A DNA stretch of 64,000 nucleotides from Antedon mediterranea (Eukaryota > Echinodermata > Crinoidea > Comatulida > Antedonidae). The position numbers were made by a program, and so were the translations under genes. The notes below the pieces were generated by a model. The model searched no databases, had not been told where the DNA came from, and saw only the letters and a list, made by a program, of their open reading frames with translations. This document shows, one piece after another, positions 1 to 56,176 of the stretch; position 1 is the stretch's first letter; each line of letters starts with the position of its first letter. The DNA is taken from the NCBI RefSeq assembly GCF_964355755.1, contig NC_092680.1:20127001-20191000 (forward strand). Direction: 5' to 3'.

Positions 1-1549
1 ATAGGGTATTATTCACTTTTCCTAACTATAGATATTTACATACTTTTAACCATTCTATTATAAATAAACAATTTCAAAGTTATTGAAAGTTTATTTAAAA
101 ATTCCGAACCAGATTTGACTTTGAAATCATGTCCATTAAATTGCACAAACAAAATTGAATTCTACTTACTAAATATAGATCGTTCACATATATATCCAAA
201 CCCATTGCTGCCGCCCCAGTTTCCAAGTTTATCAGAACAAAGTAAGTCCATTAGGCGCAGGAGCCCCGGATAGCGTTACGAAGTCGTTAACTCTGTCAAC
301 CCATGGTCAGCCCAACTAATGTGTTTTTCCCAAGGACAACTTATCAATAACTAAACTTTGTCACCACCCATAAGTGTGCTGTTCATTTCCTATTGACCAA
401 TGAACACCAATGTAACTGGACCTGAGTTACTTGCTATTCGACCTTGGGTGCAAATTATACAATTAATTGATGTTAAGGCCACTGACTACTCTTTTCTGTA
501 TAGAAACACTGAATTGACTGAATAAGAAAACCCTACAATAATTTCTACTACTACTTGATATGGTGTTATACAACAACTATATTAAAAGAATTGAATGTAT
601 GGAGAATGAAAAAAAACAATTGTTAAACGTTATATGTAAAACATCACTTAGATGATATCTATCAGATATATCATTTTCTAAACATTGTTTCATTAGTTAT
701 ATCACGGAAAAATAAGTTAGTTATAAATAAGTAAGTTATTTCTCCATGAAAGTTTCTCCATTGTTATATTCACATCACATATATTTATATTTGGTTTTAC
801 ACGTAATATTTCATTAAGAATTTCATTTTCTGACAATGTGATTGAAAAATGATGATGTTAACTGTTGGGCCTACAGAAATGATACAAATTCTCAGTTGAT
901 ATGACACAAAATTTACAGAATTCAGCACTAACAACATACCATATTCTTCAGTTCAGGTCACAAGTTTCAGGGGCGACAATGCAAACATCCCGCCAAAATT
1001 GTCCTTCATATCTCTGTATTGCCAAGTAACACACGGGAAAAGAACAAATAAAAAACAAAAACCTTTCAAAACAGACCTATTTCTGTTTTTAAAAAGATTG
1101 AAATGAAATAATTCTTTTTAAACACTGTACTGTACTTGGAAACACGTACTTGATTTGTGATATCCTCCGTTAAAAATACAGTAGAAAGTGTCCCCTTAAT
1201 AGGGGTTCTACTGCCCCTGGAACAATTCCTAAAAAAACATGTCCTCTTCATAGAGGTTTCGCAGAAAAAAACCAATATACTGATCTGGACTCGGAAATTT
1301 AAAATGTAGCAGGCAACGTTTCATAATTATTATGATATCCATTTTTATTTAATAACGATAAATGGATATAAATATTTCGTCTTTTTTGTTATTTTGTGAT
1401 GGAAAAAATATTGAGTGAACATTGGCACTGAGCTTAAATGTTCCCCGTCCCCTTAATGTCCCCTTTATAAGAGTGTCCCCTCAGTAAGGATTGACTGTTT
1501 CGCCCCTTAATAATAAATGATGGTGTCCATCTTATGTCCTCTCAATTTT

Positions 1550-1770
1550 AATGTGCTACACCCGATAATAGAATACACATCTAGCTCGTGTGCACTTTAA
1601 AAAACCTAGTAAATCTTTCGAGACGAGCAGGGGGTTACCCCGGTGTATTAGTACATCACAGCCACTGATCATCAACTGGGCCCTATGGGAGACCAGTCTG
1701 TTTCTGAAGAGGTTACCCAGTATAAATATATATTTCAATTCAATTCAATTCAATTCAACGTAAGGTGGTG
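1550..1770 (+). repeat. SINE-like body with CAATT tail, nested in the transposon
   Basis: Shares a long stretch with the element at 28985-29305 in opposite orientation, for example ATCAACTGGGCCC / ATCACCAACTGGGCCC and GGGGTTACC. The copy ends in (CAATT)n at about 1735-1758. No tRNA-like head is visible here, so it looks 5'-truncated. Confidence 0.6.
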
Positions 1771-1924
1771 TTTGGCATGTTGTGCAGGAGGGAGGTCAGA
1801 CAATATTGTCATAAAATGTATTCATTAATTTGCTTTTCCTTCATCCAATCTACATAGTAGATGGATGAAGCTATTGTTCTAACCACGTGACTATGTGGCG
1901 TAGGTTTTTTTTTTTTTAATATAT

Positions 1925-1925
1925 C

Positions 1926-1960
<35 letters not shown>

Positions 1961-1970
1961 TTATATATTT
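1925..1970. repeat. (CA)n-(TA)n microsatellite
   Basis: A run of CA dinucleotides is followed by TA dinucleotides just after a T-tract. Confidence 0.9.
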
Positions 1971-2079
1971 GCTACAATAATGTACACTAATTTGTTACTG
2001 AACTATGGAGATTTTTTTTTTTCCGAAATAAAAGATGAATGAATGAATGAATGAATAGAATAACTGTACAGTAGGCTCC

Positions 2080-3560
2080 CATGTGTTACCCAATGTGCTC
2101 AATTTGATTGTGCTACCCAATGTGCTATCCATTTGAAATAATGTGCTATCCATTTGAAAGAATGTGCTACCCGATAATCCGTATAGAATAATGTACAGTA
2201 CTATATCCATTTGACTGTGCTACCCAATGTGCTATCCATTTGAAATAATGTGATATCCATTTGAAATAATGTGACTATCCATTTGAAAGAATGTGCTACC
2301 CGATAATCCTTATAGAATAATGTACAGTACAATTACATCCATTTGATTATGCTACCTAATGTGCTATCCATTTGAAAGAATGTGCTACCCGATAATCCGT
2401 ATAGAATAATGTACAGTACAATTATATCCATTTGATTATGCTACCTAATGTGCTATCCATTTGAAAGAATGTGCTACCCGATAATCCTTATAGAATAATG
2501 TACAGTACTATATCCATTTGATTGTGCTACCCAATGTGCTATCCATTTGAAATAATGTGCTATCCATTTGAAATAATGTGACTATCCATTTGAAAGAATG
2601 TGCTACCCGATAATCCTTATAGAATAATGTACAGTACAATTATATCCATTTGATTATGCTACCTAATGTGCTATCCATTTGAAATAATGTGCTATCCATT
2701 TGAAAGAATGTGCTATCCATTTGAAAGAATGTGCTATCCATTTGAAAGAATGTGCTATCCATTTGAAATAATGTGACTATCCATTTGAAAGAATGTGCTA
2801 CCCGATAATCCGTATAGAATAATGTACAGTACAATTATATCCATTTGATTGTGCTACCTAATGTGCCTTCCATTTGAAATAATGTGACTATCCATTTGAA
2901 ATAATGCTACCCGATAATCCGTATAGAATAATGTACAGTACAATTATATCCATTTAATTGTGCTACCTGATGTGCTATCCATTTGAAAGAATGTGCTATC
3001 CATTTGAAAGAATGTGCTACCCGATAATCCTTATAGAATAATTTACAGTACTATATCCATTTGATTGTGCTACCTAATGTGCCTTCCATTTGAAATAATG
3101 TGACTATCCATTTGAAATAATGCTACCCGATAATCCGTATAGAATAATGTACAGTACAATTATATCCATTTGATTGTGCTACCTGATGTGCTATCCATTT
3201 GAAATAATGTGCTATCCATTTGAAAGAATGTGCTACCCGATAATCCTTATAGAATAATGTACAGTACAATTATATCCATTTGATTGTGCTACCCAATGTG
3301 CTATCCATTTGAAATAATGTGCTATCCATTTGAAATAATGTGCTATCCATTTGAAAGAATGTGCTACCCGATAATTCTTATAGAATAATGTACAGTACAG
3401 TTATATCCATTTGATTGTGCTACCCAATGTGCTATCCATTTGAAATAATGTGCTATCCATTTGAAAGAATGTGCTACCCGATAATTCTTATAGAATAATG
3501 TACAGTACAGTTATATCCATTTGATTGTGCTATCTATTGTGCTATCTGTTTGAACTAATG
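2080..3560. repeat. Higher-order minisatellite inside the transposon
   Basis: The ~21-bp word GTGCTATCCATTTGAAATAA (with A/G variants) occurs dozens of times. It is interleaved with a longer module containing CCGATAATCCGTATAGAATA and ATGTACAGTACAATTATATC. Short open frames here (for example repeated FQMDST on the minus strand) are consequences of the repeat, not genes. Confidence 0.9.
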
Positions 3561-6071
3561 TGCTGTCTGTTTGAAATAATTCAGGTTTTTTATTTTGAAT
3601 ATGTTTTGCTATCCATTTTAGACGTGCTAAACAAGTTACATATTTGTTGATATAAATTTGCGGTACACCACGTATATTAGTTCTGAAAAGAACTGTTGAG
3701 TTGCTCGACGTTTCGATTTACTCCAAAGTCAAAGTCTCCAAAGCTATTCCATCATGTCGTATTCGGGGAATCGCCCACAAGTGTTTTCTCAGAGCAGGGT
3801 ATGTTCCGTATAGGGTTCTGTATGCTATTTTTTAATAATGTACAAAAAATGAAATGAATAATCATCGGTATGTACGGAGAAAGCTCGAGCGGAAGTCGAG
3901 GTTACTTTTGCCAACAAGACGAAGCGCGAAACAAATAAAAACGCAGCGCGAAACATCTGAAATGATATACAATTTCTCAAAACATGAAAACACAGAATAT
4001 ATTATATTAATATAACTTTTTAATATTTCCAAAGGCTCGGACATGGAAGAAGGGCCTTAAAAAACTGAATTGCTATATGTTAGACCACTTTTCCATAACT
4101 TTTCAAAACTCATCGAACCCTCTGCTAGTAGGCCTAATTAATATAGGAGCGTCGCCAAATCATTAGAAAAAAAAACATGGCATGAAGATGTAATTAATCA
4201 AACAACGGCCAAAGAATACCAACAATTTTAATTTAGGTTTCGATTCGTAATTACTAATGTGGTGGACTAGAAGCCTAGTTTGAAACTATAGTGACCATTT
4301 ATTTTAGAAAGAAAGATAGAAAAATGTGTTTCCATCTCCATGTTAATACCAAGGCACTTTTCAATTAAAAATTCTGGCCTAGTATTCTTGCAAGGTCGTC
4401 ACAGCTCCAGTTACAAAGGTCGTCACAGCTCCAGTTACAAACGGTGATACAAAGTGTCAATCATTTGACCAGTGAACAGCCCACTGGTAGGATAGTCCTT
4501 GAAACCGTCCATAAAACACATTAATCACTCACATCAGTCATGCCGCTAATGGTTGAAAACCTCACTTTTTGGGGTTTTCAAACGTAACGCTATCCGGGGC
4601 TCCTGCGCCTAATGCACTCCACCTGCCGTCAGAGGTTGTCATAAAACCAAATGCACAATCAGTATCTCCTACATTAGGTTCTCCAGATCCCCAGTATAAA
4701 TACTCAACAGTTTCTCCAGATTCCCAGTTCCAGCTGGATAGCATCGTTCTATCTGTTCCCACCTCACGGGATAACCCAATGGCATAGGCTCCATTTGCAC
4801 AGTTTTCCTGCAGGATATCCAATATAGCATTGTTTTCTTCTGTAGTGTTTATACTCACAAGATTATAGTCTGCATCACACAATCCTTTAATTTCATTCCA
4901 AGTTTTGTATTCGGTGAAGTGTGTCACAATTACAAACGTTGCTTTATAGTTTGACGATCCAACAGAAAATTCCGCACAAGCTATCGGTAAGAAAAATCCT
5001 GTGAGTAGGACAGTTTTAGTTATTAGAAGTTAATGCCTACAGTTTTTTAATCAAAATGTTAAGTATATTTGTTTTTTTATACTGTACCTTGGCAATGTAC
5101 AACTGCGACGACATAGATATTGAGTATTAGGAAAATCCTTTGAAACATTGTAAAACATAACTTGTATGATATTAGCTTCTATAAGGAAACATACTCTTAA
5201 TATTATATCTTGATAAGAGGGCGCTCTTTTAAGGAAACATGATTTTAAAATAGTCCTTTTGGTGTTTTTTAAGTTGTGGTTTCTTAACATCAACTAATAG
5301 TCATATAGAGGTCCTTTATCAAAATGTTTACCTTTACCTTTCAGTATATTTAGTACGGTATGCATTGTAAGTTATTCATGTATAACGACAAGGAAAACCG
5401 GCGTATTAACCAGATTCCAATAATCATTCTGGAAACCTGCTATGTACAGAAACTCGCTTTTGATATACATTTAACAATATAAATAAATATGAAATAAAAA
5501 TACATTTTACTTGGTGTGGGAGGTCGCCGTTTGTTATCCGATGTTCATAAATTATTTACTCTCCAAATTGTTATAGCAAAAAAAACGTTACTTATTTTAC
5601 TTTTTTTTGGAAAAAAAAACACCACTAAATACGGGTTGGCGGATTGGCCGTATTTTAAAAACATATTCCCTTCTTTCGTTTTACAGGAAAGTGTCACCTT
5701 TTGATACTGTGTCCCAAAAAGAGATTCTACTGTATTTTGTATAATACATAAACTAAGATATTTATTACATTAATCGCTGTGATTATAAGTGAAATAACGA
5801 GTAAATCGAGACTTTTCACATCAAAGATTAAATAGGTTTTTGAGGAAATAATCTTTAATATGTATTTTACTTCCAGTTTAAGCTGACGAGTATAATCGCT
5901 TTCAGAACTTTATTCAACCATAAGAAAATAAAACAATAGTACTAAAGAGGGGAAAACAAAAACACCCACAAAGATGCTGAAGTGAAATGGTTGTGCATCA
6001 GTGCTGTATACGCAATACATAGAACGCAACTATTACTTTATGCTAACGAAAACGAAACCTTTATTGTAGCA

Positions 6072-6127
6072 ATGAAGGCCATCACAATACTCATCTGCCT
6101 AACTCTTTTAAGTGTAGAGCTCACAAG
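6072..6127 (+). pseudogene. Orphan plus-strand signal-peptide-like exon (copy 1)
   Basis: Reads MKAITILICLTLLSVELTS on the plus strand, a convincing signal-peptide shape. The sequence after it is GCATTTTT, where a related copy at 15143-15210 has GTATATTT, a possible splice donor. It lies head-to-head with the signal exon of lectin receptor 1. No downstream plus-strand coding exon is visible. It is probably a relic of a divergent secreted or membrane gene carried along in the tandem duplications. Confidence 0.4.
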
Positions 6128-6461
6128 CATTTTTAATTTACATTTTAACACTTGTTTTCAAATTGATTATTTATGATTATATATTCCAGAGGCTTCAAGA
6201 TTAAGAATTTAGATTTGTTTCTTTCTACTCTGCCTAAAATAATATCATTAATAAGTTGCCAAAGCTAATGTTAGTGTTTTCTATTCTAATGCAATCATTT
6301 GTACAGCTGTTCTATCCACATTTTAGCTTTATTATTATTCTACTATTAACACATTAATATTAACCTTGATAGTTGAACTACCTGTAACCTTATCATTAAC
6401 GTTCTTTATAAAATGTAAATAATATACAATGACAATTTAATTGTATATATTATTTCTACAT

Positions 6462-9400
6462 TTATTCTGTAACCTCAACATAAACAGGTTGTTGCACGTC
6501 TTCGTTGAATCCTCCATACGCGGCATTCTCTTCAATCACGTGACATACATTGACTGCTTTCTGTGACTTTTCTGATGTTTTCAATTCGCTTTCAGATTTA
6601 CAAAAGAGTTGGTCATGAAATCTGAATATAAATATAGTATATTTATATTTATATATATATTCATATTGATTTCTATTATCATAGGAATATTTGATAATAG
6701 AGCATTTCATTTGTATCACATTGTGGTGCTTTATCATGTAAGATGGTAATGCTATGGTAGGTCTATATGATACTAGGAGATACACATGTGGAACACACGT
6801 GGTAGTTTACTCAATGTATTAACACCAAGAAAAGTTTCTGTTACTTAGTTCAGGCAATTAAGATACCAAAGAGATTATTATGAAGTATACCTACCTATAT
6901 AACAGCATTACTATAACAACAGCAAAAACCACATTTAATGTTACAGATGATATCACTACCGCAGTCAAGTCTGAAATAAACAATAGTAGCATTGCCATCT
7001 TAATTCATAAAACTACTACGTAATAGTCCACATTATCAAAATTGTGTAACTTTTAGTTGGTTTGTTGGCCTATTACTTTGAGTTGCTTTGGTAGGTTTTA
7101 ACATCATTCGTCGTTTATTGGTCAATAATTGTTGTGTGAGTGCGCGCTTCTATATTATTGTTTGTTCAATTGGTCGTTTGTCGGATGACCCTTTTGTAGC
7201 GGGTAGGTAACATTTTTGGTTAGATAACATTTTGGTTAACTTATGTTCTTGACATATTGATAGTTCAGTGTTTGTGACATCCTCGGATACTCACATTTTC
7301 AATTTCCATAAGTGCTCAATTGTATATTAGTAATGCATAACCAACAACATTTGCTAGTCATTGTTCTGAAAAACTTATATTTTACAACCTACCAAATATT
7401 GATTCCTCTTCATTTACTAAGCTACAATCAGTCATCCTGATATCATCACTATATGTTAAATCATTATCGATGGTCTCACTAGTGGGTAGCAACGATGTCA
7501 GGTGGTGAGTCGTGGTTTCATGATGAGTGACGTCAGTTGATGCGTCCAAAACAGTCTCACTAGTGGGTAGCAACGATAACAAGTTGTTAGTCGTTGTTCC
7601 ATGATGAGTGACGTCAGTCTCAAGAGTTGAAGTTACTGGAGGATTTGCTGGATAAATTAGAACAAATAAATCAGATAAACCAACAGAAAAACACAGTAAA
7701 TGATTAATTTATTTAATACGCATAAAACTTCTTATGAACTAATTCTGTAAAAGACTGTAATGTACTAGATATCTAAAATCAAAATACTAAGTTGGCTAAC
7801 TTCCAATAAAATCTATTGATAATACATTGGAAATATATTTCAAATACGGTATGACGTTTATCTCATTATGTCACATGGTGTGTTTTTTGGTCAATGTTGT
7901 TCAGTCAGTGTGAATGTTGGAATACCTTTGATTTTAACTCGTGTTATAATTACCGATAGTAATCGTAGGTATCAACGACATCAATTGATTAGTTGTTGTG
8001 CCAGGAGGCGTCGTGACGTTAGTTGATGCGTCCACAACAGTCTCACTAGTAGGTAGCAACGATATCAGGTGGCTAGTCGTTTTTCTATGAGTGACGTCAG
8101 TTGCTTCTTCAAGAGTTGAAGTTACTGGAGGATTTTCTATATAAATTAAAACAGACAAACGGTAACACGGTATATAAATTAATTGTTTAGATACACATAC
8201 AATATCTTATAGGCCTAGACTCTGTAATGTTCTAGATGTCTGAATCAAAATACTAAGTAGGTTTCCAATAAAATATATTGATAATACATTGGAAATATAG
8301 TTTCAAATAATAATAATAATAATATCCTGGATTAATATAGCGCCTAATGTTGTGAAACCTCTAAGCGCTGAACATTATTACCCCAGTCATTTTTTCCTGA
8401 TCAAATACGTATGGAAACATACTCTCATAATGCAGCTAGTAATCAGCGCAAAGTTGTGTACGGTATGACGTTTATCTCATATTGCCATGACATGTTTTTC
8501 GGTCAATGTTGTTCAGTAAGGGTCAATGTTGTTCAGTAAGTGTGAATGTTGGAATTGATTTTAACTCGTGTTATAATTACCGATAGTAATCGTAGGTACC
8601 AACGACATCAATTGATTAGTTGTTGTACCAGGATGCATCGTGACGTCAGTTGATGCGTCCAAAACAGTTGAAGTTACCCGAGGAGTTGCTACAAATTAAT
8701 GTAATGTAAATATGACTAATCATAACCCAATCGAGAAAATATATTCTTATTAATATAAAGGAACAATCATAAAACATTATCTTATAACTTAAAAATGTAA
8801 AGCTTTATTGCAATATACACTGTAAAGTTTTAAAATGCAAAAGCTATTCCGAATAGAATTTCTGTTTTGCTATTCTTAAAAAGTTGGTAAAAACAACTAC
8901 GATATATTTTGTACCTTGCTGATATTCACGTTTTAGTTTATTTTCTACTATCTCTAAAGTATTACTATTAATCTATTAATTACTATAAGAGCTGAACTAT
9001 ATGCTGTACAATTTTTAGATTTTTTTAAAATAATCTAAATATTAATATTACTTCTAAATTTGAACTATGCTTGTTTAAATAAAACAATTTTTTAAAGTAA
9101 AGAGCATTGTTACATACAGATGCTACAGGAACTACAACTATTTCACTTACTTGGAACTGTTTTTTCACATATATATCCATACCCACTGCCGCCTCCAACA
9201 AGTGTTTCAGAACAAGGTAAGTCACCCCACCTGCCATCAGAGGTTGTTATATAACCAAATGCACATTGTGTATCTCCTACATTAGGTTCACCAGAAGCCC
9301 AGTATAAATACTCAACAGTTTCTCCAGATTCCCAGTTCCAGCTGGATGCCATCGTTCTATCTGATCCACTCTCACGTGATAACCCAATGGCATAGACTCC

Positions 9401-9761
9401 ATTTGCACAGTTTTCCTGCAGGATACCAAATATAGCATTGTTTTCTTCTTCAGTGTTTATACTCACAAGATTATACTCTGCATCACACAATCCTTTAAGT
9501 TCATTCCAAGTTCTGAATTCGCTGAAGCGTGTTACAATTACAAACGTAGCTTTATAGTTTGACGATCCAATAGAAAATTCCGCACAAGCTATCGGTAAGA
9601 CATAATGCAGTGAGAGAAGAACCATTTTAATTATTAGAAGTTAAATGCCTATAGTTTTTTTTTATCAAAATGTTAAATATATTTGTTTTTTATACTGTAC
9701 CTTGGCAATGTACAACTGCGATGACATAGATATTGAGTATTATGAAAATTTTTTGAAACAT
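6462..9761 (-). CDS. C-type lectin receptor 2 (signal - CTLD - mucin-like stalk - TM - tail), complete
   Basis: Predicted type I membrane lectin of about 426 aa. Exons, 5' to 3' on the minus strand: 9761-9701 signal (MFQKIFIILNIYVIAVVHCQ); 9588-9151 CTLD; 8688-8581, 8136-7954 and 7647-7393 Thr/Ser-rich stalk; 6970-6895 TM (AVVISSVTLNVVFAVVIVML); 6621-6462 tail ending QPVYVEVTE. The intron phase is 1 throughout except 2 before the tail, and all frames join. The CTLD has YAIGLSRE, WNWESGE, an EPN motif and GRWGDLPC, the equivalents of the WIGL, Ca-site-2 EPN and WND motifs, so mannose-type Ca-dependent sugar binding is likely. The stalk holds internal copies of a module around TDVTHH and SLLPTSET. 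The tail has tyrosines in NAAYGGF and VYVEV. An alternative unspliced start at 9625 (MVLLSLHYVLPIAC) also keeps frame. The last coding bases GAATAAA merge the stop codon with a poly(A)-like signal. Confidence 0.85.
8296..8400. repeat. Dispersed repeat fragment (AAT)n plus GCGCCTAATG-type tail
   Basis: An AAT run is followed by TGGATTAATATAGCGCCTAA and a CTAAGCGCTGA word. A related fragment is at 12070-12150, and a reversed GGCGCTATATCA word is near 63757. The wording resembles 3' ends of widespread invertebrate retroelements. Confidence 0.5.
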
Positions 9762-10031: not shown

Positions 10032-10644
10032 TTGGAACTGTTTTCTCACATATATACCCATACCCATTGCTGCCTTGCCAGTTTCCAAGTTTGTAAGAAC
10101 AACTTACGTCATCCCACCTACCATCAGAGTTTGTTATAAAACCAAATGCACAATCATTATCTCCTACATTAGGTTGACCAGATGCCCAGTATAAATACTC
10201 AACAGTCTTTCCAGATTCCCAGTTCCAGCTGGATAGCATCGTTCTATCTGTTCCCATCTCACGTGATAACCCAATGGCATAGACTCCATTTGCACAGTTT
10301 TCCTGCAGGATATCCAATATAGCATTGTTTTCTTCTTCAGTGTTTATACTCACAAGAATATAACCGTCATCACACAATCCTTTAAGTTCATTCCAAGTTT
10401 TGAATTCGGTGAAGTGTGTAACAATTACAAACGTTGCTTTATAGTTTGATGATCCAACAGAAAATTCCGCACAAGCTATCGGTAAAAAAATGCAATGCAA
10501 TGAGAAGAATCGTTTTAGTTATTAGAAGTTAATGCCTATAGTTTTTTTTATCAAAATTGTAACATTATTTATTTTTTATACTGTACCTTCGCAATGTACA
10601 ACTGCGACATAGATATGGAGTATTATGAAAATCCTTTGAAACAT
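10032..10644 (-). CDS. Second signal + CTLD cassette (lectin receptor 3), no anchor of its own
   Basis: Signal exon 10644-10587 (MFQRIFIILHIYVAVVHCE, phase 1) and CTLD exon 10475-10032 (148 codons, phase 1, donor GTAAGT). Only about 270 bp separate it from the signal exon of receptor 2, and no stalk, TM or tail lies between. Its donor is phase-compatible with the receptor 2 stalk exon at 8688, so it may be an alternative 5' cassette of that gene. The CTLD has QPN where the other copies have EPN, and GRWDDVSC in the WND position, suggesting altered ligand preference. Without splicing the exon has no ATG in frame near its 5' edge, which supports use of the separate signal exon. Confidence 0.75.
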
Positions 10645-10699
10645 TGTAAAACATAACTTGTATGATATTAGCTTGCGTACAAGGAAACAGACTCTTAAT

Positions 10700-11886: not shown

Positions 11887-14413
11887 CTAAGTGCAGGGGC
11901 AGTATACAACAACTGAAAAGAAGAAAAACTCTTTTTGATCAATGTCATGGCATACTTATAGTTTCCATACATACTTTAATATATTTTAAATAATGTTGAT
12001 AAAAAGTATTTCATTTAGGAAGAAAGCGTAAATTAAAGAAAACAATTAAATAAACACAACGTTGATCTAGTTGGCTTAATAATAATATTCTGGATTTATG
12101 TAGCGCCTAATGTCGTGAAAATTCTAAACGTTTTAGCCTCCTACATACAAACTGAAAACATTTACAAAAAATAACATCTAGACATTTGCAAGTGGCTTGG
12201 TTTGCTTCAATTAATTACAAGTAAATGAAACTTAAGTAGTTTAGAGAAGGTGTAAATAGTTTAAGAAGAGGGAGAATTAAATTAGGCCACAAAATATCCA
12301 CAATTCTTGAATTCTGTAATTATTGTTTTTTTTTCACTTTATTGTTATTTAACCATGTTTGTCACATTACAATATTTAGTTGGTGTTGTTTTGTGTCTCC
12401 CATGTGTTATTTCCTAACTTTACAACCAAATAAATATCTCATCATGATTGTGCGATTTTTCTCTAATATTGTAGTTGATGAACTAAAAAATAAAATGATT
12501 ATTCAACTTATATTAAATATAGGAGAACCTACCTTTACAAGAAGGAGTTGATCCGGACCAACTTCCATCTTCCAAACACATTCTGGTCGTGTTACCTATC
12601 AATTCATAACCAACCGTAGTACACGTATATGTAGCTGACATGCCAAATGTTGTGCCAGATACGTAGGAAACCTCTCCATTTATAATATTGCTCAAACCAC
12701 CACAATCAACAGCTATAAATATAGATTATTGTGAACATTATTAATTAATATTAATAATTGTGTTACTCTCAGTGAAATAAACTGAAATACTATACCTAAT
12801 TCACACAATGATCCTGATGTACCAGATGGACATTGACAGATAAATAATGATGAGGATGATGAAGTTTGCAGGCATGTTCCACCATTCTGACAGAAATTGT
12901 CGAGTTGGCAGGGATCTGTAAATAAACATACATTTATATAGATAAAAATTGATTCTACATATTATTTCAGATAAATTGATTTATCTAGACTAGTCTAATA
13001 TGACAACCTGTAGTCTAAGTGCTAGACGACAAATCGTTTCATAAGTATAATAGGCCTGCTTGATAATACGGCGTTTCGATTTTTTTCTGAAAATACTAGC
13101 GCATGTAGTATACATATGAAACCCCATATGTGCCAAAATATGTATCTTTTTACTAATTTCTAGACTAATAAAGCTTAAGCACTGCAAACACTATGTTCAT
13201 TTGTCTACCTCCTACTTCACAGCGTGTTCCAGAATAGGCAGTTGGACACGAACAAAAATAAGATGTTGACGATTGATGACAGGTCCCACCATTCAAACAT
13301 GGACTACTTGAACAAGGAGAAACAACTGAAACAAATAAAAATAAAATCAACTGATGATATGTAGACCTACCAACTGAACAAAATAGTGTGCTTTGTACAC
13401 ATGTTCCATTATTCATTAAGATGACAGAGATTTTTAAAGACTGTATCAGTACTAAATATGATTATGAATTCAGGACTTCATTTCTTGCAATGTTTTGCAA
13501 TATCTGGTATGACTGTAGATCAAAATTCTGTATTTTAAAAAAGATCATTTAGAAAATACTTATCCTTGAACATTTCCCACCATAGTACAGGCCGAAATCA
13601 TTTTTTCCAAACATAGGTGTTTATAAATCAGTTGGAGATGCAACATATAATTAAATATTTGTACATTCATGCCGTTTCATAATATGCCTAATTGAGCTGG
13701 AATCACTAGTTTATCGAGACAAAAACTAGAGACTTGAGACAAGACCAGCCAACCTGTAGATTGTTCATTGCTCTACCTACCTACTTCTTCTTCACAGTGT
13801 GTTCCAGTATAACCTGATAGACAACTACACAAATATATATCAGGTAACTGTGTACAGGCCCCACCATTCAGACATGGGCTAGAGTAACAAGGATTTATAA
13901 CTGAAACAAATAAAAGAAAAATCAACTAATAATGTACCAGCAGCTGGACCGAAAAAGTGTGATTTGTAGGCACGTTCCACCCTTCATACTGGGTTGGCAG
14001 AGATCTGTAACTAGTGTAACAGTATAACTATTAATATTGGCTATAAAATTAGACAAATGCATAATTTATTGGTCTATTTCGTGCCATTTAAGCATTTTAA
14101 ACCAATGTTTGACATACCACCTAGTTGAATGTGGAATTGTCCTCTTTATCAATGATTGCCATGCGAATCCTAAAACCGTACTAAGAGATTAACAATGACA
14201 ATAGTAGGGGTAATGTCACAGATACCTAGTGGTATAGGACTTTAGTGACTACTGATAAAAACTATAACGGAATACGGGTAAACATAAGGAAAAGATCAGC
14301 CATAAAAAGAAAGAGATGGCAAGCTTTAGTCAAACACTATAATAATATTGCATACCTTGGCATTTTACTACGGTCACATACAAGTAAAATATCAACCAGA
14401 TCTTGAGAAACAT
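11887..14413 (-). CDS. EGF-EGF-EGF-sushi protein, predicted secreted
   Basis: Exons: 14413-14356 signal (MFLKIWLIFYLYVTVVKCQ); 13900-13781, 13325-13209 and 12915-12796, each one EGF domain (PCYSSPCLNGGACTQ, PCSSSPCLNGGTCHQ, PCQLDNFCQNGGTCLQ, each with the C-x-C...C core); 12712-12533 one sushi/CCP domain (VDCGGLSNIINGEVSYVSG to GSWSGSTPSCK). All junctions are phase 1. The simplest next exon (acceptor TTTTCAG, 11912-11887) adds VVVYCPCT and a stop, giving about 206 aa without a membrane anchor. Because all exons are phase 1, the sushi exon could instead splice into the downstream CTLD exon at 10475 and so reach the TM and tail. The signal exon is almost identical to that of the EGF receptor at 22.8-26.9 kb. 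The domain calls are firm; the 3' end is uncertain. Confidence 0.7.
13380..13440 (-). pseudogene. Relic EGF half-exon
   Basis: Reads NNGTCVQSTLF, the first half of an EGF domain. No second half follows, and the same broken unit recurs at 13945-14012 and 24790-24872. Confidence 0.5.
13945..14012 (-). pseudogene. Relic EGF half-exon with intact acceptor
   Basis: After a GTTACAG acceptor it reads LCQPSMKGGTCLQITLF, then loses homology. It lacks the CxC...C half of an EGF module. Confidence 0.5.
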
Positions 14414-15505: not shown

Positions 15506-17794
15506 TTATTCTGTAACATCAACATAAACAGGTTGTTGCACGTCTTCGTTGAATCCTCCATACGCGGCATTCTCTTCAATCACGTGACATACATTGACTG
15601 CTTTCTGTGACTTTTCTGATGTTTTCAATTCGCTTTCAGATTTACAAAAGAGTTGGTCATGAGATCTGAAGATAAATATATGTACATAAATATTTGTCTA
15701 GTATCATAGGAATATTTGATAATAGAGAGTTTCATTTGTATCACATGTGATGCTTGTATCATGTAAGTTTGAGTTAAGGATAAGGCTAGGAGATACACAT
15801 GTGGAGCACATGTGCTTTTTACTCAGACTCTAAACGTTAGAGGACAGTTATGAACATAAATACTTTAGTTCAGGCAATCAAGATACAGATTAGTCATGTC
15901 GTCTACCTACCTATATAACAGCATTACTATAACAACAGCAAAAACCACATTTAATGTTACAGATGATATCAGGCTTGAAATAAACGATAGTAACATTTCG
16001 AAGTACTGAATTGTATATTAATAATGCATGATATAACCAACCATTTTGCAAGACGATTTTCTGAAATATATTTTGTCAATTAGGTCTAGGCCTACACAAA
16101 AATATTTATTTTGCAACCCACCAAGTTTTGATTCCTCTTCGTTTGCTAAGCAACAATCAGTCATCCCGATATCATCAGTAATTGTTAAATCATTATCGGT
16201 GGTCTCACTAGTGGGTAGCAACGATATAAGCTGGTTAGTCGTTGTTCCATGATGAGTGACGTCAGTTGCTTCCTCGAGAGTTGAAGTTAGGCCTTCTGGA
16301 GGATTTGCTTGATAAATTAAAACAAAGAAATCAGATCAACCAACAGGTAAACACAGTATATGATTTAATTGTTTAGATACGCATAAAACATCATATAAAC
16401 TAATTCTGTAAAGAACTGTAATGTGCTAGATGTCATAATACTAAGTAGGCTAACTTCAAATAAAATATATTGACAATACATTGGAAATTATACATTCAAA
16501 TACGGTATGACGTTTATCTCATATTGGCATGTGTCACGACATGTTTTTCGGTCAATTTTGTTAAGTCAGTGTGAATGTTGGAATCCCTTTGATTTTAACT
16601 CGTGTTATAATTACTTACCAATAGTAATCGTAGGTATCAACGGCATCACTTGATTAGTAGTTGTACCAGGATGCGTCGTGACGTCAGTTGATGCGTCCAC
16701 AACAATTGAAGTTACTTGAGGAGTTGCTACAAATTAATGTAATGTAAATATGACTAATCATAACCCAATCGAGAAAATCTATTCTTATTAATATAAAGGA
16801 ACAATCATAAAACATTATCTTATAACTTAAAAATGTAAAGCTTTATTGCAATATACACTGTAAAGTTTTAAAATGCAAAAGCTATTCCGAATAGAATTTC
16901 TGTTTTGCTATTCTTAAAAAGTTGGTAAAAACAACTACGATATATTTTGTACCTTGCTGATATTCACGTTTTAATTTATTTTCTACTATCTCTAAAGTAT
17001 TACTATTAATCTATTAATTACTATTAGAGTTGAACTATATCCTGTAAAATTTTTAGATTTTTTTAAAATAATCTAAACATTAATATTACTTCCAAAGTTG
17101 AACTATGCTTGTTAAAAAAACCCAATGTCTTTTAAGTAAAGAGCATTGTTACATACAGATGCTATAGGAACTACAACTGTTTCACTTACTTGGAACTGTT
17201 TTCTCACATATATACCCATACCCATCGCTGTCTGTTAGTGTGTCAGAACAACTCCCTTCACCCCACCTACCATCAGAGTTTGTTATATAACCAAATGCAC
17301 ATTGGTTATCTCCTACATTAGGTTCACCAGATCCCCAGTATAAATACTCAACAGTCTCTCCAGATTCCCAGTTCCAGCTGGATGGCATCGTTCTATCTGA
17401 TCCACTCTCACGTGACAACCCAATGGCATAGACTCCATTTGTACAGTTTTCCTGCAGGATATCCAATATAGCATTGTTTTCTGCTGCAGTGTTTATACTC
17501 ACAAGACTATAACCGTCATCACACAATCCTTTAAGTTCATTCCAAGTTTTGAATTCCCTGAAGTCGGTAACAAGTACAAACGTTGCTTTATAGTTTGACG
17601 ATCCAACAGAAAATTCTGCACAAGCTATCGGTAAGAAACATGCAGTGAGAAGGACAGTTTTAGTTATTAGAAGTTAATGCTTACAGGTTTTTTTTTATCA
17701 AAATTTTAACAATATTTGTTTTTTATACTGTACCTTGGCAATGTACAACTGCGATGACATAGATATTGAGTATTAGGAAAATCTTTTGAAACAT
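15506..17794 (-). CDS. C-type lectin receptor 4; TM exon looks damaged
   Basis: Exons: 17794-17734 signal (MFQKIFLILNIYVIAVVHCQ); 17624-17190 CTLD (145 codons); 16726-16619 and 16307-16122 stalk; TM exon from about 15975 to 15908; 15665-15506 tail ending PVYVDVTE. The CTLD keeps EPN but has GRWGEGSC, so the WND-type Asp is Glu. The TM exon has lost about 15 bp at its 5' edge. Its acceptor now reads TTATTTCAAG, and using it gives a TGA almost at once, out of frame with the hydrophobic segment. The stalk donor is also weak (GTGGGT). The product may therefore be secreted or non-functional, although the tail exon remains open. The tail stop again lies inside AATAAA. Confidence 0.75.
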
Positions 17795-18830: not shown

Positions 18831-18979
18831 AGAGGCTTCTTAAGACATTATTTTTGTATCTTGTTATCCACATTTTAGCTTTATATTCTACTTATCTATT
18901 AACATCTATATAACGTTAGTTTAACTAAAAGTAAATAATATGCAATGACAATTTAATTTTTTATATTATTTGTCTACAT

Positions 18980-21222
18980 TTATTCTGCAACCTCAACATA
19001 AACAGGTTGTTGCACGTCTTCGTTGAATCCTCCATACGCTGCATTCTCTTCAATCACGTGACAAACATTGGCTGGTTTCTGTGACTTTTCTGATGTTTTC
19101 AAATCGCTTTCAGATTTACAAAAGAGTTGGTCATGAAATCTGAAGATAAATATATGTACATAAATATGTGTCTAGTATCATAGGAATGTTTGATAATATA
19201 TCATTTCATTTGTATCACATTGTGGTGCTTGTATCATGTAAGATTATGGGTAATGCTATGGTAGGTCTATATGATACTATGAGATACACATGTGGAACAC
19301 ACGTGGTAGTTTACTCATTGTATTAACACCAAAACGTTAGAGGAAAGTTTTTTTTTATGAACTTAAATACTTTAATTCTGGCAATCAAGATACCAAACAG
19401 ATTAGTTTTTTATTCCTACCTATGTAACAGCATTACTATAACAACAGCAAAAACCACATTTAATGTTACAGATGATATCACTACCGCAGTCAAGTCTGAA
19501 ATAAACAATAGTATATAGTAGCATTGCCATCTTTATTCAGAAAACTACTACTATGTAACAGTACACATTATCAAAATTATGTAACTAAATTTTACAACCT
19601 ACCAAATTTTGATTCATCTTCGTTTACTAAGCAACAATCAGTCATCCTGATATCATCAGTAATTGTTAAATCATTATCGATAGTTCCCTGATAAGTGACG
19701 TCAGTTGCTTCCTCAAGAGTTGAAATTACTGGAGGATTTGCTGGATAAATTAGAACAAATCAGACAAACCAACAGGAAACACAGTAAATGATTTATTTAT
19801 GTAAATACGCATAAACCTTTTTATGAACTAATTCTGTAAAGAATGTACTAGATGTCTGAAATCAAAATACTAAGTAGGCTAACTTCCAATAAAATCTATT
19901 GACAATACATTGGAAATATAATTTCAAATACGGTATGACGTTTATCTCATATTGCCATGACATGTTTTTCCGTCAATGTTGTTCAGTAAGTGTGAATGTT
20001 GGAATCACTTTGATTTTAACTCGTGTTATAATTACCGATAGTAATCGTAGGTATCAACGATATCAATTGATTAGTTGTTGTACCAGGATGCATCGTGACG
20101 TCATTTGATGCGTCCAAAACAGTTGAAGTTACCTGAGGAGTTGCTACAAATTAATGTAATGTAAATATGACTAATCATAACCCAATCGAGAAAATCTATT
20201 CTTATTAATATAAAGGAACAATCACAAAACATTATCTTATAACTTAAAAATGTAAAGCTTTATTGCAATATACGCTGTAAAGTTTTAAAATGCAAAAGCT
20301 ATTCCGAATAGAATTCCTGTTTTGCTATTCTTCAGAAGTTGGTCAAAACAACTACGATATATTTTATACCTTGCGGATATTCACGTTTTAGTTTATTTCT
20401 ACTATCTCTAAAGTATTACTATTAATCTATTAATTACTATTAGAGCTGAACTATATCCTGTACAATTTTTAGATTTTTTTTAAAATAATCTAAATATTAA
20501 TATTACTTCTAAATTTGAACTATGCTTGTTTAAAAAAAACAATTTTTTTAAAGTAAAGAGCATTGTTACATACAGATGCTACAGGAACTACAACCGTTTC
20601 ACTTACTTGGAATTGTTTTCTTACATATATATCCATACCCATTGCTGTCTTTCCAGCGTCCAAGCTCTTCAGAACAACCGAAGTCTCTCCACCTACCATC
20701 AGAGTTTATTATATAACCAAATGCACATTGGTTATCAACTACATTAGGTTCACCAGATGCCCAGTATAAATACTCAACAGTCTCTGCAGATTCCCAGTTC
20801 CAGCTGGATGGCATTGATCTATCTGATCCACTCTCACGTGATAACCCAATGGCATAGACTCCATTTGCACAATTTTCCTGCAAGATATCCAATATAGCAT
20901 TGTTTTCTTCTTCAGTTGTTATACTCACAAGATTATAATCTTCATCACACAATACTTTAAGTTCATTCCAATTTTTGAATTCGCTGAAGTGTGTTACAAT
21001 TACAAACGTTGCTTTATAGTTTGACGATCCAACAGAAAATTCTGCACAAGCTATCGGTAAGACAAATGCAGTGAGAAGTGAACAGATTAGTTATTAGAAG
21101 TTAATGCCTACATTTTTTTTATTATCAAAATGTTAAATATGTTTATTTTTGTATACTGTACCTTCGCAATGTACAACTGCGATGACATAGATATTGAGTA
21201 ATATGAAAATCTTTTGAAACAT
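18980..21222 (-). CDS. C-type lectin receptor 5, complete with short stalk
   Basis: Exons: 21222-21162 signal (MFQKIFILLNIYVIAVVHCE); 21050-20607 CTLD; 20143-20036 and 19740-19603 stalk; 19495-19420 TM; 19139-18980 tail. All phases join, giving about 328 aa. The CTLD has EPN, GRWRDFGC and SNGYGYIC, with a slightly divergent VVD after EPN. It has one stalk exon fewer than receptor 2, and its second stalk exon lacks a TTxxL-SLLPTSET module, so stalk length varies by module loss. The TM reads TAVVISSVTLNVVFAVVIVM and the tail keeps both tyrosine motifs, matching receptor 2. Confidence 0.85.
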
Positions 21223-22802
21223 TGTAAAACATAACTTGTATGATATTAACTTGTACAAGGAAACAGACTCTTAATATTATTATATTCTTGATGAGAGGGC
21301 GCTCTTTTAAGGAAAACATGTTTTTAAAATAGTACTTTGGTGTTTTTTAAAGTTGTGTTTTTTAACAATATGAGCAAATAGTAATAATTTTAAGCGACTA
21401 ACTATAAAGCTCTTTATCAAAATGTTTTTATAATTGTATATTATTAAAGTAGGCCTATGTATTGTTAGTTTGTCAAGTAACTACAAGGATTACCGTACCT
21501 GTGTTCTGTAAAGTAAACCAAACAAATAGAGCCTGGGGCGATAAAACATCGAAACAATAAAAAATGGCAATAATGGTAATAGTTACGAAATGGTATTAGT
21601 ACGCGTGACATAGAAACTAAAATTAACTCAATTTATGGAAAAAAGAATGAATCTTTGGACCTGAAATTGCCCATTTCAAAATATTTTAGCTTGGATCGAT
21701 TGAGGGTGTTTTCCGATCGTGGTATACACTATCTAGTTGTAATCATTCACCGAATCACTGTTGTAAAAGGAAGGTGTAATGGGTGGTATTAAAAAATACC
21801 CTTTGATTTTATGAACCTTATTTTGTAAGAAAGCCGTGGGTCAATGAAGCATAACAACAGAATTCTACACAAACCAAAAGTCTTAGTTTTAACACAAAAG
21901 ACTATTTTTGCCTTTTGCCAATAACAAATATATTTATTTTTATCAGGTCTTGGTATACTTGCATTTTCTGGCTCTATATACACTCACTACTAATTCAGCA
22001 TTATAAAATAGAACACTTTTACACTCAATCTACACTCTACATGCAAGCAGCATAATATTTAACTGACACACACACCTTAATCTCCGTGCCCCGACACTCC
22101 TAAATCCTCTCCTATTCCAGTTTTATTTAGGCCCTTAAAGTAGACTATTACTCAACATCCATTGGTGTAATGCATACATATTGATAGAAATGGAAGGGGC
22201 TTATCTTGAAAAACAGTAAAAACCTTGAAATCCTTATTTGTTTAATAACCCATTTGAATACTTACTGCTACAGAACTCGTAGCAATTAGCAATTCTGCTG
22301 TATAAGTACACATTTCAAATTCTCTGAAGATCTTTGGACAAATATTATTTTGAATAAACAATAAGCCTATATAATCAGAATTAGAGTTAATAATATGCCT
22401 ACGTAAGGCTTACAAATAAATTTAAAAAGTGCGTTCTACTTTCAGATATTTTATCGATCATCATGCATATTACATTGTTGAATCTTTTGTACAACGTACA
22501 CTACAACTTTCTTATCCTTCATCATTATGTTTTATCATCAATCTTTAAAAGTTTTTCTTGCCTTTTTTTTCTTTTCTTTTTTTTTCTTCAAATCATCTAG
22601 TTAGGCTATAATACATATTTACAAACACCATACAATATAGCATTGAAAACACAATAGATCATTCATTGTATCTCATTAACATAGTCTCTTCCCTGACATC
22701 TAATCTGATAGACATATTATATTATTATTGCATGAAACTATATTATTTTTATCAAGTAAAAATGTAAAGTTACTCTAAGATTATAATATTTTCGTTGCAG
22801 TC
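21223..22802. other. Gene-free stretch
   Basis: The first ~450 bp repeats the conserved 5' flank of the lectin genes (as at 10.65-11.1 kb). The rest is AT-rich sequence without recognisable coding exons. Confidence 0.5.
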
Positions 22803-25800
22803 CTATTTAGTAATATCAACATAAACCGGATCCTGTAGGTCTTGGTGAAATCCTCCATAAGCTTCATTCTTTTCAAACACATGGCATACATTGACTGGTT
22901 TCGGGGCCTTTTTACTTTCACTTTTCAAATTTTGACTACGTAATCTGAAGATAAACAAATAACATTAACTCAATATAAAATATAAAAACAAATCATTAAT
23001 AATGATGTTATATTTCAGTAAAAAGATACAAATCTATAAGCTTCTTTTATACATTAAACGTTTTACACAGACGTCATACGTATTTATTGAATACGTCACA
23101 ATTGTCTTTGTTGGTTTAAAATACACTGTTTAATGGTTTTGTATTTATTTATTTTATTTTGTATCTGTGTTGTTTCGGGATCTATATTTCTTTCCTCTTA
23201 AAACGCTCTTTCAATTTAATCTGAATTGAAATTAACATAAAATTAATGTTTAATTTTTGAATAATAAAAAATTTAAATAATAATAATAATAATAAAGAAT
23301 TATAATAATAACTCAAAAACGTATATACCAACCTGTATAACAGCGTTACAATAACAATGCCACAAACCACATTTAACGTCACCGATGATATCACGACCGC
23401 TGTCAATACTATAAATGAAGCAAAAATTAACCAAAATAAATAATACAATACATTATCGAAAAGTTAAATATATGGGATGGCAGAGGATGACAGCTTAGAA
23501 GAAGAAAATGATTAAGAAATATATAAATATCTACACAAAAAAGGAAATATATCATTAAATTATTTATAAATCCGAAGGCAAATTACTGAAAATGCCAATG
23601 CTGTGGGTATCAGTGTGGCTGGATCTCAATGGAGATAAAAAAAAAAGCGAAAAGCTAAATCAAAATGATAAAGTAAAACAGCCAGAAAAGTTAGCAGAGC
23701 TTTCGGGCAACACTAGCCCTTCATCAGTGCAATTAAATTATTTAGAATATATATTTATTTAATTTATGTGTGATTGATTGTTTTCTTAATTGCTTGCTTG
23801 TTTAATTGATAATAAATAAATCAACCTACCAAGTTTTGATTTATCATCGTCATCTCTAATCTCACTAATTGTGGGCAACAACGATATCAATTGGTTAGTT
23901 GTTTTACCAGGATGCATTACTTCAGTTGAAACCACTTCAGGAGTTGCTACAGAAGAATTCAAGCGTTTTAATAATCAACGACCGCAGTTCCTTAAAGTAC
24001 ATTTTCAATGTAGTTTTCCATCATTATTGTGAAATTGCGACCCACAACCTACCAGGTTTTGATTTATCATCGTCATCTCTTGTTATGTCATTACCAATTG
24101 TTTCACTAATTGTGGGCAACAACGATATCAATCGGTTAGTTGTTTTACCGGGATGCATTGCTTCAGTTGAAACCACTTCAGGTCTTGCTACAGAAGAATT
24201 CAAGCAATAAAGTCAACTCAAACGATTGCAGTTTCTTAAAGTACATTAACAATGTATAGTTTTCCATATTAAAAACATCATTTTAAATAGTAAGAATAAT
24301 AGCCTAAAATCAGAGCACATGTACATTTCGTGTTGTTTATTTTTATATCATTATCTAGTCATTATGACAAATACGGAATAGAAAAAAAAACAATTCACAA
24401 AAATAATTATCATTAAACAATAGAGTGTATACAATTAACACATCAAATCCAATTTATTCAAAAATGCTTACATCCTCTTGAAGACAAGACATTATTCTTT
24501 TAATGTACTGTTATTCAACCACATATAGATGAAGCTAAAAACATCTTTTATACTTCTTAATCTCGAAAAGTTAACGGAATCCCAATTTTCAAATCTGCAA
24601 ATTGTTCATTGCTCTACCTACCTACTTCACAGTTTCTTCCAGAAAAGCCAGGTGGACAACTACATACAAATCCTACATCAGGTGTTACAGATTGAAAACA
24701 GGTCCCACCATTAAAACATGGGGTAGGAGAACAAGGATTTACACCTGAAACATTTAAAACAAATTCAATTGACGATGTACGTACCCGCTGCAAAATGTGT
24801 GCTTTGTACTCATATGTTCCACCATTCATTCATTTGAATGGGTTGGCAGAGATCTGTAACAGTGTAACTACTACGATTATGAATTAATAATACAAACTGG
24901 CTGATAGATAGTGACAGTGATAGAACATCCACAATCTCACTCTCACCCATCCATGCAATGTGTAGCTCCGAGTGACGTGTTAGATAAGTTAATATAGGGA
25001 ATGTGTAGCTCCGAGTGACGTGTTAGATAAGATAATATAGGGAATGTTCATGAATGTTGTAGCTCCGAGTGACGTGTTAGATAAGATAATATAGGGAATG
25101 TGTAGCTCCGAGTGACGTGTTAGATAAGATAATAATATAGGGAATGTTCATGAATGTTGTAGCTCCGAGTGACGTGTTAGATAAGATAATATAGGGAATG
25201 TGTAGCTCCGAGTGACGTGTTAGATAAGATAATATAGGGAATGTTCATGGTTGTAGCTCCGAGTGACGTGTTGTTAGATAAGATAATATAGGGAATGTGT
25301 AGCTCCGAGTGACGTGTTAGATAAGATAATATAGGGAATGTTCATGAATGTTGTAGCTCCGAGTGACGTGTTAGATAAGATAATATAGGGAATGTGTAGC
25401 TCCGAGTGACGTGTTAGATAAGATAATATAGGGAATGTTCATGAATGTTGTAGCTCCGAGTGACGTGTTAGATAAGATAATAGGGAATGTGTAGCTCCGA
25501 GTGATGTGTTAGATAAGATAATATAGGGAATGTTCATGAATGTTGTAGCTCCGAGTGACGTGTTAGATAAGATAATATAGGGAATGTTCATGAATGTTGT
25601 AGCTCCGAGTGACGTGTTAGATAAGATAATATAGGGAATGTTCATGAATGTTGTAGCTCCGAGTGACGTGTTAGATAAGATAATATAGGGAATGTTCATG
25701 AATGTTCAGTATTTGCCTTTGATACACACCTGAAGCGATATCTGGAAACATTGCCTCTGGAAATATAGGCCTATAGTAACTATAGAGTTGAACTATACCG

Positions 25801-26929
25801 AGACACTTTAAGTAGCGTATTGACTTTCTTTCAAAATATCTAACATAGAATAATGGCAAACGTTTAAGAATAGTAAATTCAGAAGTATAATATACTTCTT
25901 CTTAAACGTTATTCTCTATGAACATTATTAGCCAAAATGAAATGTCCATCTTGAACAAGGTCATATACATGGCTGCAGTCAAGTGCTCAAGTTAGTGTTT
26001 ACCTACCTACCGACCCACCGACCGACCGACCGACCAATCGATCGATCGATCGATCGACCGATCAACCGACCGACCAGTAATAATACATTTAACATTTAAC
26101 ATTTAACATAGTGAGCTGTAGATACCGGCTGCACACAATAATACGAGGATGCTTTCGATTTTCCTATCTCCTCCTACGATAATTGTTTTTAATGGCTAAA
26201 AACCGGTTGAACAGCTCGAGAACAGGCTCATAATGTTGAAGACAGGCCGATGGATTTTCTTTAAAAAAAAAACTATTTTGATAGATTAATATATAATTGT
26301 TATACAAATGTATTGTTTTTCGATAAATGGAACATTCCAATCTCTCTTCCACAGCGTCTATTCCCTCAGGCATCGTAATAACACAAAGGTAAGTTAAGTA
26401 CACTTATAATAGAAATTCCATTCATTTTTTAAATCTGTGCTGCAGAGGTTGGATATAGGTATTTTTTTTAAACAGATAATGAGCTAGCGTTTTCAGTCGC
26501 CGTCTATATACATGTACAATCAACAATATTATTGCAGTTAAACCACCCCTCAATGGCATTGAGCAGAAAAAAAACAGAACTTTGGAGGGGAACTAACTTA
26601 AGTATGAATTGGCTCTAAGAAACAATTGAAAACTACTAATTAATTTGAGTTAGATAATTATTTATTGACGATTAAAATTTACGATTTGCCCCGAATAGAG
26701 GTGTTTTTCACAAAATTGTTTTACATTATATAAACACATATACAAATAAACTTTATTACTGACAGTTGCTTTACGTTTGTAACGGAATACGGGTAAACAT
26801 AAGGCAAAAATCAGCCATAAAAAGAAAGAAATGGCAAGCTTTAATCAAACACTATATAATATATTGCATACCTTGGCATTTTACTACGGTCACATACAAA
26901 TGAAATATCAACCAGATCTTGAGAAACAT
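22803..26929 (-). CDS. EGF receptor on the lectin-family stalk, TM and tail
   Basis: Exons: 26929-26872 signal (MFLKIWLIFHLYVTVVKCQ); 24744-24622 one EGF domain (NPCSPTPCFNGGTCFQ to CSCPPGFSGRNCEVG); 24187-24053 and 23946-23830 stalk (STEAMHPGKTTNRLISLLPT and a near-identical partner, both with acidic RDDDDKSK ends); 23408-23333 TM (TAVVISSVTLNVVCGIVIVT); 22944-22803 tail ending YVDITK. Phases join to about 216 aa. The TM and tail are plainly homologous to the lectin receptors (VNVCHV, EAYGGF, DPVYVDI), so the ectodomain has been exchanged while the membrane and signalling part is shared. The first intron is about 2.1 kb and holds a minisatellite. Confidence 0.85.
23575..23735 (+). repeat. 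Dispersed repeat, copy also at 30984-31245
   Basis: Contains CAATGCTGTGGGTATCAGTG, GGCTGGATCTCAATGGAGAT, an A-tract, and AGCAGAGCTTTCGGGCAACA, all shared with the PPM1G intron copy. Family unknown. Confidence 0.65.
24790..24872 (-). pseudogene. Relic EGF half-exon
   Basis: Same broken unit as at 13945-14012: GTTACAG acceptor then CTCTGCCAACCCA and a GGTGGAACAT word. It is not open as an EGF module. Confidence 0.45.
24962..25708. repeat. Minisatellite with CRE-like cores
   Basis: A ~40-bp unit (GTAGCTCCGAGTGACGTGTT then AGATAAGATAATATAGGGAA) alternates with a longer form carrying TGTTCATGAATGT, about 16 copies in all. Each copy has a TGACGT core like a CRE/ATF site. It lies in the first intron of the EGF receptor. 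Confidence 0.9.
25859..25910. repeat. Two-step palindrome
   Basis: AACGTTTAAGAA (25859-25870) pairs with TTCTTAAACGTT (25899-25910), and AGAAGTATA pairs with TATACTTCT inside it. Confidence 0.7.
26005..26080. repeat. (GACC/ATCG)n tetranucleotide microsatellite
   Basis: A run of CTAC, GACC and ATCG tetranucleotides. Confidence 0.85.
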
Positions 26930-56170: not shown

Positions 56171-56176
56171 TTGTTA

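Follow-up and report, generated by a model that had tools for sequence, protein, structure and literature searches.

Ten units arranged in tandem on the minus strand of one chromosome probably form a small paired-receptor-like set of type I transmembrane lectin receptors, which would have been made by the exchange of ectodomain cassettes between two types of cytoplasmic tail. The cluster spans 48 kb and lies partly in the stretch of DNA that was analysed (the window, 64,000 nucleotides, NC_092680.1 (C11):20127001-20191000; the genome comprises 354 Mb in 18 contigs). It runs from W26.9k to W-21.4k, where W is the window coordinate and negative values lie before the window start. The units are termed A, B, C, D, E1, E2, F, m9, m13 and m18 and contain in total 10 homologous phase-1 signal exons and 8 transmembrane (TM)/tail ends. 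Their ectodomains consist of a lectin domain (CTLD), one EGF module, three EGF modules plus one CCP module, or a CTLD together with CCPs; seven CTLD exons are intact and one more, in unit F, is split by a transposon. Inside the window a CTLD is found in B, C, E1 and E2 and the split one in F, and EGF is present in A (one module) and D (three, with a CCP), in agreement with the initial annotation, which had seen a lectin ectodomain in four genes and EGF in at least one. The features of the units in the window are:

26872..26929, minus: unit A signal exon, MFLKIWLIFHLYVTVVKCQ, donor phase 1 (95% identity with unit D across 130 bp)
24622..24744, minus: unit A EGF exon, phase 1-1 (Pfam EGF 4.2e-10, splice sites)
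24053..24187, minus: unit A stalk exon 1, phase 1-1
23830..23946, minus: unit A stalk exon 2, phase 1-1
23333..23408, minus: unit A TM exon, phase 1-2 (dN/dS 0.14-0.18 vs lectin genes)
22803..22944, minus: unit A short tail exon with stop and two conserved Tyr (dN/dS 0.41-0.45 vs B, C, E2)
21162..21222, minus: unit B signal exon (homology scan)
20607..21050, minus: unit B CTLD exon
20036..20143, minus: unit B stalk exon
19603..19740, minus: unit B stalk exon
19420..19495, minus: unit B TM exon
18980..19139, minus: unit B short tail exon
17734..17794, minus: unit C signal exon (homology scan)
17190..17624, minus: unit C CTLD exon (Pfam Lectin_C 1.6e-08)
16619..16726, minus: unit C stalk exon
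16118..16307, minus: unit C stalk exon, whose donor is moved to phase 2 in the sole open model
15911..15973, minus: unit C TM exon, without the TAVV stretch, phase-2 acceptor required
15506..15665, minus: unit C short tail exon
14356..14413, minus: unit D signal exon
13781..13900, minus: unit D EGF exon 1
13209..13325, minus: unit D EGF exon 2
12796..12915, minus: unit D EGF exon 3
12533..12712, minus: unit D CCP (sushi) exon (Pfam Sushi 2.9e-08); no TM or tail before unit E1
10587..10644, minus: unit E1 signal exon (homology scan)
10032..10475, minus: unit E1 CTLD exon, without own 3' end (AlphaFold2 model)
9701..9761, minus: unit E2 signal exon (homology scan)
9151..9588, minus: unit E2 CTLD exon
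8581..8688, minus: unit E2 stalk exon 1
7954..8136, minus: unit E2 stalk exon 2
7393..7647, minus: unit E2 stalk exon 3
6895..6970, minus: unit E2 TM exon
6462..6621, minus: unit E2 short tail exon, the nearest 3' end that follows D, E1 and E2
5088..5148, minus: unit F signal exon (homology scan)
4615..4980, minus: unit F CTLD exon, 5' part
249..4614, unstranded: 4366 bp element with 32 bp terminal inverted repeats, within the unit F CTLD exon
174..248, minus: unit F CTLD exon, 3' part

In the homology scan each unit possesses one signal exon, which in the CTLD units is situated just upstream of the CTLD exon, and 10/10 of these exons have a phase-1 donor; this donor (AAG/GTACAG) has a low splice score. 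Ectodomain and stalk exons are in phase 1-1, TM exons in phase 1-2 and tail exons run from phase 2 to the stop, with the phase-2 route of unit C as the exception. The phase 1 that had been ascribed to all ectodomain exons is hereby confirmed (all are 1-1) and, as the extracellular joins are in phase 1, every cassette is compatible with every 3' end. Models of A, B, E1, E2, m9, m13, m18 and of D joined onto E2 are open with GT-AG splice sites throughout; among the 3' ends the exceptions are F, which is broken, and C, which has unusual sites. The in silico proteins have a length of 216 aa for unit A (in the order signal-EGF-stalk-stalk-TM-tail), 328 aa for B, 426 aa for E2, 302 aa for m9, 530 aa for m13 and 747 aa for m18, all of them open. 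To remain open, the 338 aa model of unit C requires both a donor further downstream and a phase-2 acceptor, because the TM exon has lost its first codons. Every complete unit has an N-terminal signal exon and a C-terminal TM and tail, and not the type II orientation. The receptor anatomy is well supported; transcription and splicing would be as modelled. Two putative decayed signal exons at W18.09k and W5.43k were superseded by the true ones at W17794 and W5148 in the homology scan. A single EGF-CCP-CTLD-CTLD gene made of D and E was rejected, as in the same scan every unit has its own signal exon.

Beyond the window, the CTLD of unit F is followed by four CCP exons, a TM exon and a diverged tail between W-0.4k and W-7.4k, which we assign to unit F on account of their order and because no signal exon lies between. 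The CCP of unit D matches that of unit F at 78%. A second copy of the element (about 4 kb, W-5418 to W-1453) is located between the downstream CCP exons, and both copies have 32 bp inverted ends and internal minisatellites.

The shared exons of the initial annotation were found again at their positions on the minus strand, and the similarity of the short tails is beyond chance. A search of the whole genome with the short tail gave matches in five places (E 7.7e-31 to 1.2e-11), all of them in this cluster, the weakest (E 1.2e-11) being the tail of the EGF gene with 58% identity; no further short tails were found outside the cluster in the 354 Mb. When TM and tail of unit A, the EGF gene, were used as a further query, the whole genome again gave only this cluster. 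These tail searches missed the diverged tail of unit F inside the cluster and thus distant copies elsewhere are possible. Of the proposal that at least five genes share the tail, the common tail stands: the window contains four complete 3' ends of the short-tail type (A, B, C and E2), a fifth close one belongs to m9, 12 kb outside the window, and unit F has a diverged sixth. D and E1 do not carry a stalk, TM or tail themselves. CTLD copies with 61-100% identity over most of the domain are also all inside the cluster, and the approximately 50 other CTLDs of the genome match at 42% or less. A modular family spread over the genome, which many tail matches would have supported, was rejected, since the tail searches found only this cluster and EGF matches elsewhere are generic. 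The family is ten units at one place, and a large or demonstrably fast-diversifying family is not supported.

The short tail has about 53 residues and two invariant tyrosines about 12 residues apart, which are usually found in a YGGF-x8-YVDV-like arrangement. In A, B, C and E2 the tail reads YGGF-x8-YV[DE][VI], so that the spacing fits an ITAM and the hydrophobic positions are F, then V or I; the first tyrosine motif is YGFT in m9 and YESS in F. The ITAM consensus YxxL/I-x(6-8)-YxxL/I is not reached by the short tails, and by eye the ITIM [SIVL]xYxx[LIV] is absent from them. Outside the window, m13 and m18 combine a CTLD of the same kind with a long tail containing multiple tyrosines, which has 253 and 397 residues, respectively, and is encoded by exons open for 250-400 codons. 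By eye the long tails start like the short tail beside the membrane; they are 55% alike over about 100 residues, and no other occurrence was detected in the genome at that search sensitivity. The m13 tail contains three ITIM sites, one of them beside the membrane, which is above shuffled sequences (P 0.003); the m18 tail has a single ITIM site, no more than expected by chance in shuffles, and four NPxY motifs compared to 0.07 expected. Neither the short nor the long tail matches a Pfam family. In m13 an internal repeat of about 600 bp (W-13.6k to W-14.4k) duplicates a stalk exon and the 3' half of the CTLD exon, and the repeat copy carries a stop.

The lectin domain belongs to the CTLD superfamily by fold and by profile. 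Pfam Lectin_C is matched above the cut-off (1.6e-08), the AlphaFold2 model of the unit E1 domain has a pLDDT of 93.9, and Foldseek relates it to the CTLDs of CD23 and the mannose receptor with a probability of 1.00; the best sequence profiles are those of the mannose-receptor family. The motifs EPN/QPD and WND are marks of the sugar-binding subset, not of CTLD membership. EPN is present in B, C, E2, m13 and m18 and replaced by QPN in E1 and NPN in m9, and a canonical WND is found only in m18 among the seven intact CTLDs. Since 2/7 intact domains have no EPN and WND is canonical in one, calcium-dependent sugar binding is doubtful for several of them; by these motifs the m18 CTLD is likely to bind sugar and binding by the other CTLDs is uncertain. 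The variation of the CTLDs is concentrated at residues 110-140, the region that holds the WND position. Among the five closest CTLDs dN/dS is 0.72 (0.49-1.01) overall and 1.04 (0.67-1.73) at residues 110-140, thus dN/dS gave no significant sign of positive or diversifying selection in these five, and the rapid diversification suggested in the beginning is not borne out.

For unit A the constraint on the 3' exons was estimated in the same way. The TM exon shows a dN/dS of 0.14-0.18 against B, E2 and m9, and the tail exon 0.41-0.45 against B, C and E2 and 0.52 against m9, all of which are rough values because the exons are short. They indicate that both exons are under purifying selection and were retained as coding. 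That the EGF gene uses the TM and tail exons at 22.8-23.4 kb, as had been assumed, is in this way answered in part, at the level of the sequence. A minisatellite with copies 43-100 bp apart occupies 24881-25728 of the window, within the first intron of this gene.

The exchange between tail types is seen in the CTLD tree, in which m9 and m13 are split from B, C, E1, E2, F and m18 with a support of 100/100. This split places the long-tail units m13 and m18 on opposite sides, each together with short-tail units. A tree that holds m13 and m18 together was rejected in the AU comparison (p=0.000173), where the p-value has to be read in the light of the comparison having been chosen after viewing the pairwise CTLD distances. 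A comparison of the DNA shows one continuous block of 740-760 bp, at about 80% identity, that m18 has in common with B, C, E1 and E2 and that comprises DNA upstream of the start codon, the signal exon, intron 1 and the CTLD exon and stops about 10-30 bp past the CTLD exon. Downstream of this block no match of at least 60 bp to B, C, E1 or E2 was found, and the m18 tail matches the m13 tail at 72-77% in the DNA. As the block is common across the tail types but ends after the CTLD exon, whole cassettes were exchanged, and the simplest reading is that this may have happened through unequal crossing over or gene conversion. Likewise, the signal-exon DNA regions of A and D are 95% identical, yet the 3' end of A matches the lectin genes. 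The cluster thus combines similar ectodomains on different tail types with exchange between them, as in paired receptors, at about 80% DNA identity and not near identity. The earlier proposal of different ectodomains on one shared stalk-TM-tail is strengthened by the CCP modules, the second (long) tail type and the exchange of cassettes.

In the proposed organisation each unit starts with a cassette of upstream DNA, signal exon and ectodomain exon(s), which in most units is followed by a stalk rich in Ser/Thr and by a single exon each for TM and tail. Cassettes have been copied between units via unequal recombination or gene conversion, and this copying placed the lectin cassette on two tails, the two-tyrosine tail of about 53 residues and the tail of 250-400 residues, which contains NPxY besides other tyrosine motifs. 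A ligand would be bound by the CTLD (or EGF/CCP), and after phosphorylation the tyrosines of the tail would cause endocytosis or attract proteins with SH2 or PTB domains. The short and the long form, whose lectin domains are similar, would make up a pair with differing outputs. The most likely function would be that of receptors at the cell surface that recognise glycans or proteins and whose tails signal by phosphotyrosine or endocytosis; the two forms would have their lectin domains in common.

For D and E1 no stalk, TM or tail of their own is recognisable before the next unit. Joined in silico to the 3' end of E2 they give open proteins of 458 aa and 427 aa, respectively, and the geometry and phase of D, E1 and E2 allow their cassettes to splice to one constant region. 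Tentatively, D, E1 and E2 might be one gene with alternative first cassettes, each with its own promoter and all spliced onto the stalk-TM-tail at W8.7k-6.5k, which would be compatible with the exchange of cassettes. D and E1 have signal exons and phase-1 donors, and in the lectin units the upstream DNA is conserved together with the signal exon (e.g., 88.7% over 1102 bp between B and E1). However, tandem duplication followed by loss of the 3' end would give the same picture for D and E1, and E1 and E2 are neighbours with 88% identity in their DNA. In its widest form the proposal would state that promoter-signal-ectodomain cassettes (lectin, EGF, EGF-sushi) recombine in the germline between short and long tails and that one gene, in addition, offers three cassettes on one constant stalk-TM-tail via alternative first exons; in this form we consider it improbable. 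If true, the alternative cassettes would be the cell's choice of a recognition domain on a single signalling output.

Part of the cluster may be decaying, because the splice sites of C are unusual, F is split by a transposon and D and E1 have no 3' end. With the partial CTLD repeat and its stop in m13 and the small size of the family, this could point to an ordinary tandem array in which lectin gene copies are decaying, the EGF/CCP genes are relics or mere neighbours and no functional modular system exists. We regard this as unlikely, as TM and tail of unit A are constrained and open, the phases are consistent throughout, the long-tail exons are open over hundreds of codons and the exchange across tail types is supported. 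The highly repetitive locus, including the m13 repeat, could also raise the suspicion that several units are unmerged alleles or misjoined copies, but such an assembly artefact is very improbable, given that the units differ by about 7-20% even outside the exons, that they differ in the number of stalk exons and in insertions, and that the tails map to one place.

It is possible, albeit doubtful, that the receptors are real and modular but are used for cell adhesion or for gamete or tissue recognition and not for immunity. The parts known from selectins (CTLD, EGF and CCP) serve adhesion; on the other side, the arrangement of two tails with exchanged ectodomains is known from immune receptor clusters (PMC2110893), which is an analogy only. 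We infer an immune role for the set of exchanged lectin receptors, and the neighbouring and distant Ig arrays are consistent with an immune setting, although they prove nothing. At 47454-60690 of the window, on the minus strand, and beyond it, there are five or six tandem genes for Ig-superfamily receptors that by eye are nearly intronless. They have a TM and a short tail, the similarity of the closest ones is 54-58%, and one has an in-frame stop. Between the two receptor arrays (29.4k-52.4k of the window) lie conserved genes, by eye a PPM1G-like phosphatase, SF3B5 and a PPIE-like cyclophilin, and a protein with a weak BEN-domain match. Elsewhere in the genome, intronless genes for Ig receptors of about 490 aa, by eye with three Ig-like domains, form large tandem arrays at C3 11.77-11.90 Mb, C3 18.70-18.90 Mb, C2 38.0 Mb and C6 5.7-5.9 Mb, and Ig matches number at least 85 genome-wide. 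In the array that was read, their cytoplasmic tail is strongly conserved from PVSIPDVYFEPRDHIDPMLPQLGL to QVYYTQRMYPASSL. These arrays are possibly a bigger story than the lectin/EGF cluster. Another dense CTLD array with the same IGLSR motif is located at C6:1395001-1415000, beside sequences that by eye resemble PAN domains. Models of COX1 and hemerythrin gave no match in the genome, and the spliced-leader pattern of Ciona gave one match, attributed to chance. Judging by the sizes of C1 (41.4 Mb), C3 (39.0 Mb), C6 (31.7 Mb) and C11 (22.3 Mb), almost the entire 354 Mb may be contained in about eleven large contigs.

Among known systems, the CEACAM1-related paired receptors of mammals resemble the cluster in being a tandem cluster in which ectodomain exons were converted onto different tyrosine-motif tails; in the dog, gene conversion between CEACAM1 and CEACAM28, whose tails are opposed, covered the leader and the ligand-binding exon (PMC2110893). 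They have Ig-fold ectodomains that are nearly identical and canonical ITAM/ITIM motifs, in contrast to CTLD, EGF and CCP ectodomains and tails with non-canonical paired tyrosines or NPxY here. The parallel would be a likeness of evolution and logic and implies neither membership nor common descent. Selectins (CTLD group IV) form a tandem cluster in vertebrates (PMC514892) and, like the units here, are clustered type I membrane proteins made from CTLD, EGF and CCP modules. However, they combine CTLD-EGF-CCPn in one chain, whereas here CTLD and EGF-type modules are mostly in separate units; unit F has CTLD and CCP without EGF, and the CTLD-EGF-CCP order is present in no unit of the cluster. Among solved structures the CTLD is nearer to those of CD23 and the mannose receptor than to selectins. 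Mannose receptors have 8-10 CTLDs with a cysteine-rich and a fibronectin domain, and CD23 is a type II protein; neither architecture is present in the cluster despite the best profile and fold matches. The lectin receptors of the natural killer complex are clustered and have short and long signalling forms as well, but they are type II with an N-terminal tail. In UGT1A and the clustered protocadherins a single constant 3' region serves several variable 5' units upstream of it, an arrangement that D, E1 and E2 may have as well, whereas most units here own a 3' end and alternative splicing is putative.

A described family with this set of parts was not found in the open-access literature; each part is known, and the combination with exchange between two tails is, as far as found there, not described. 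The cluster is a clear case of ectodomain cassettes that have moved between two kinds of signalling tail. Its fold has no relation to that of the mammalian Ig receptors, for which such exchange is described, and the cluster is small enough for complete testing. If the receptors are expressed in immune cells, an independent origin of paired-receptor evolution would be suggested.
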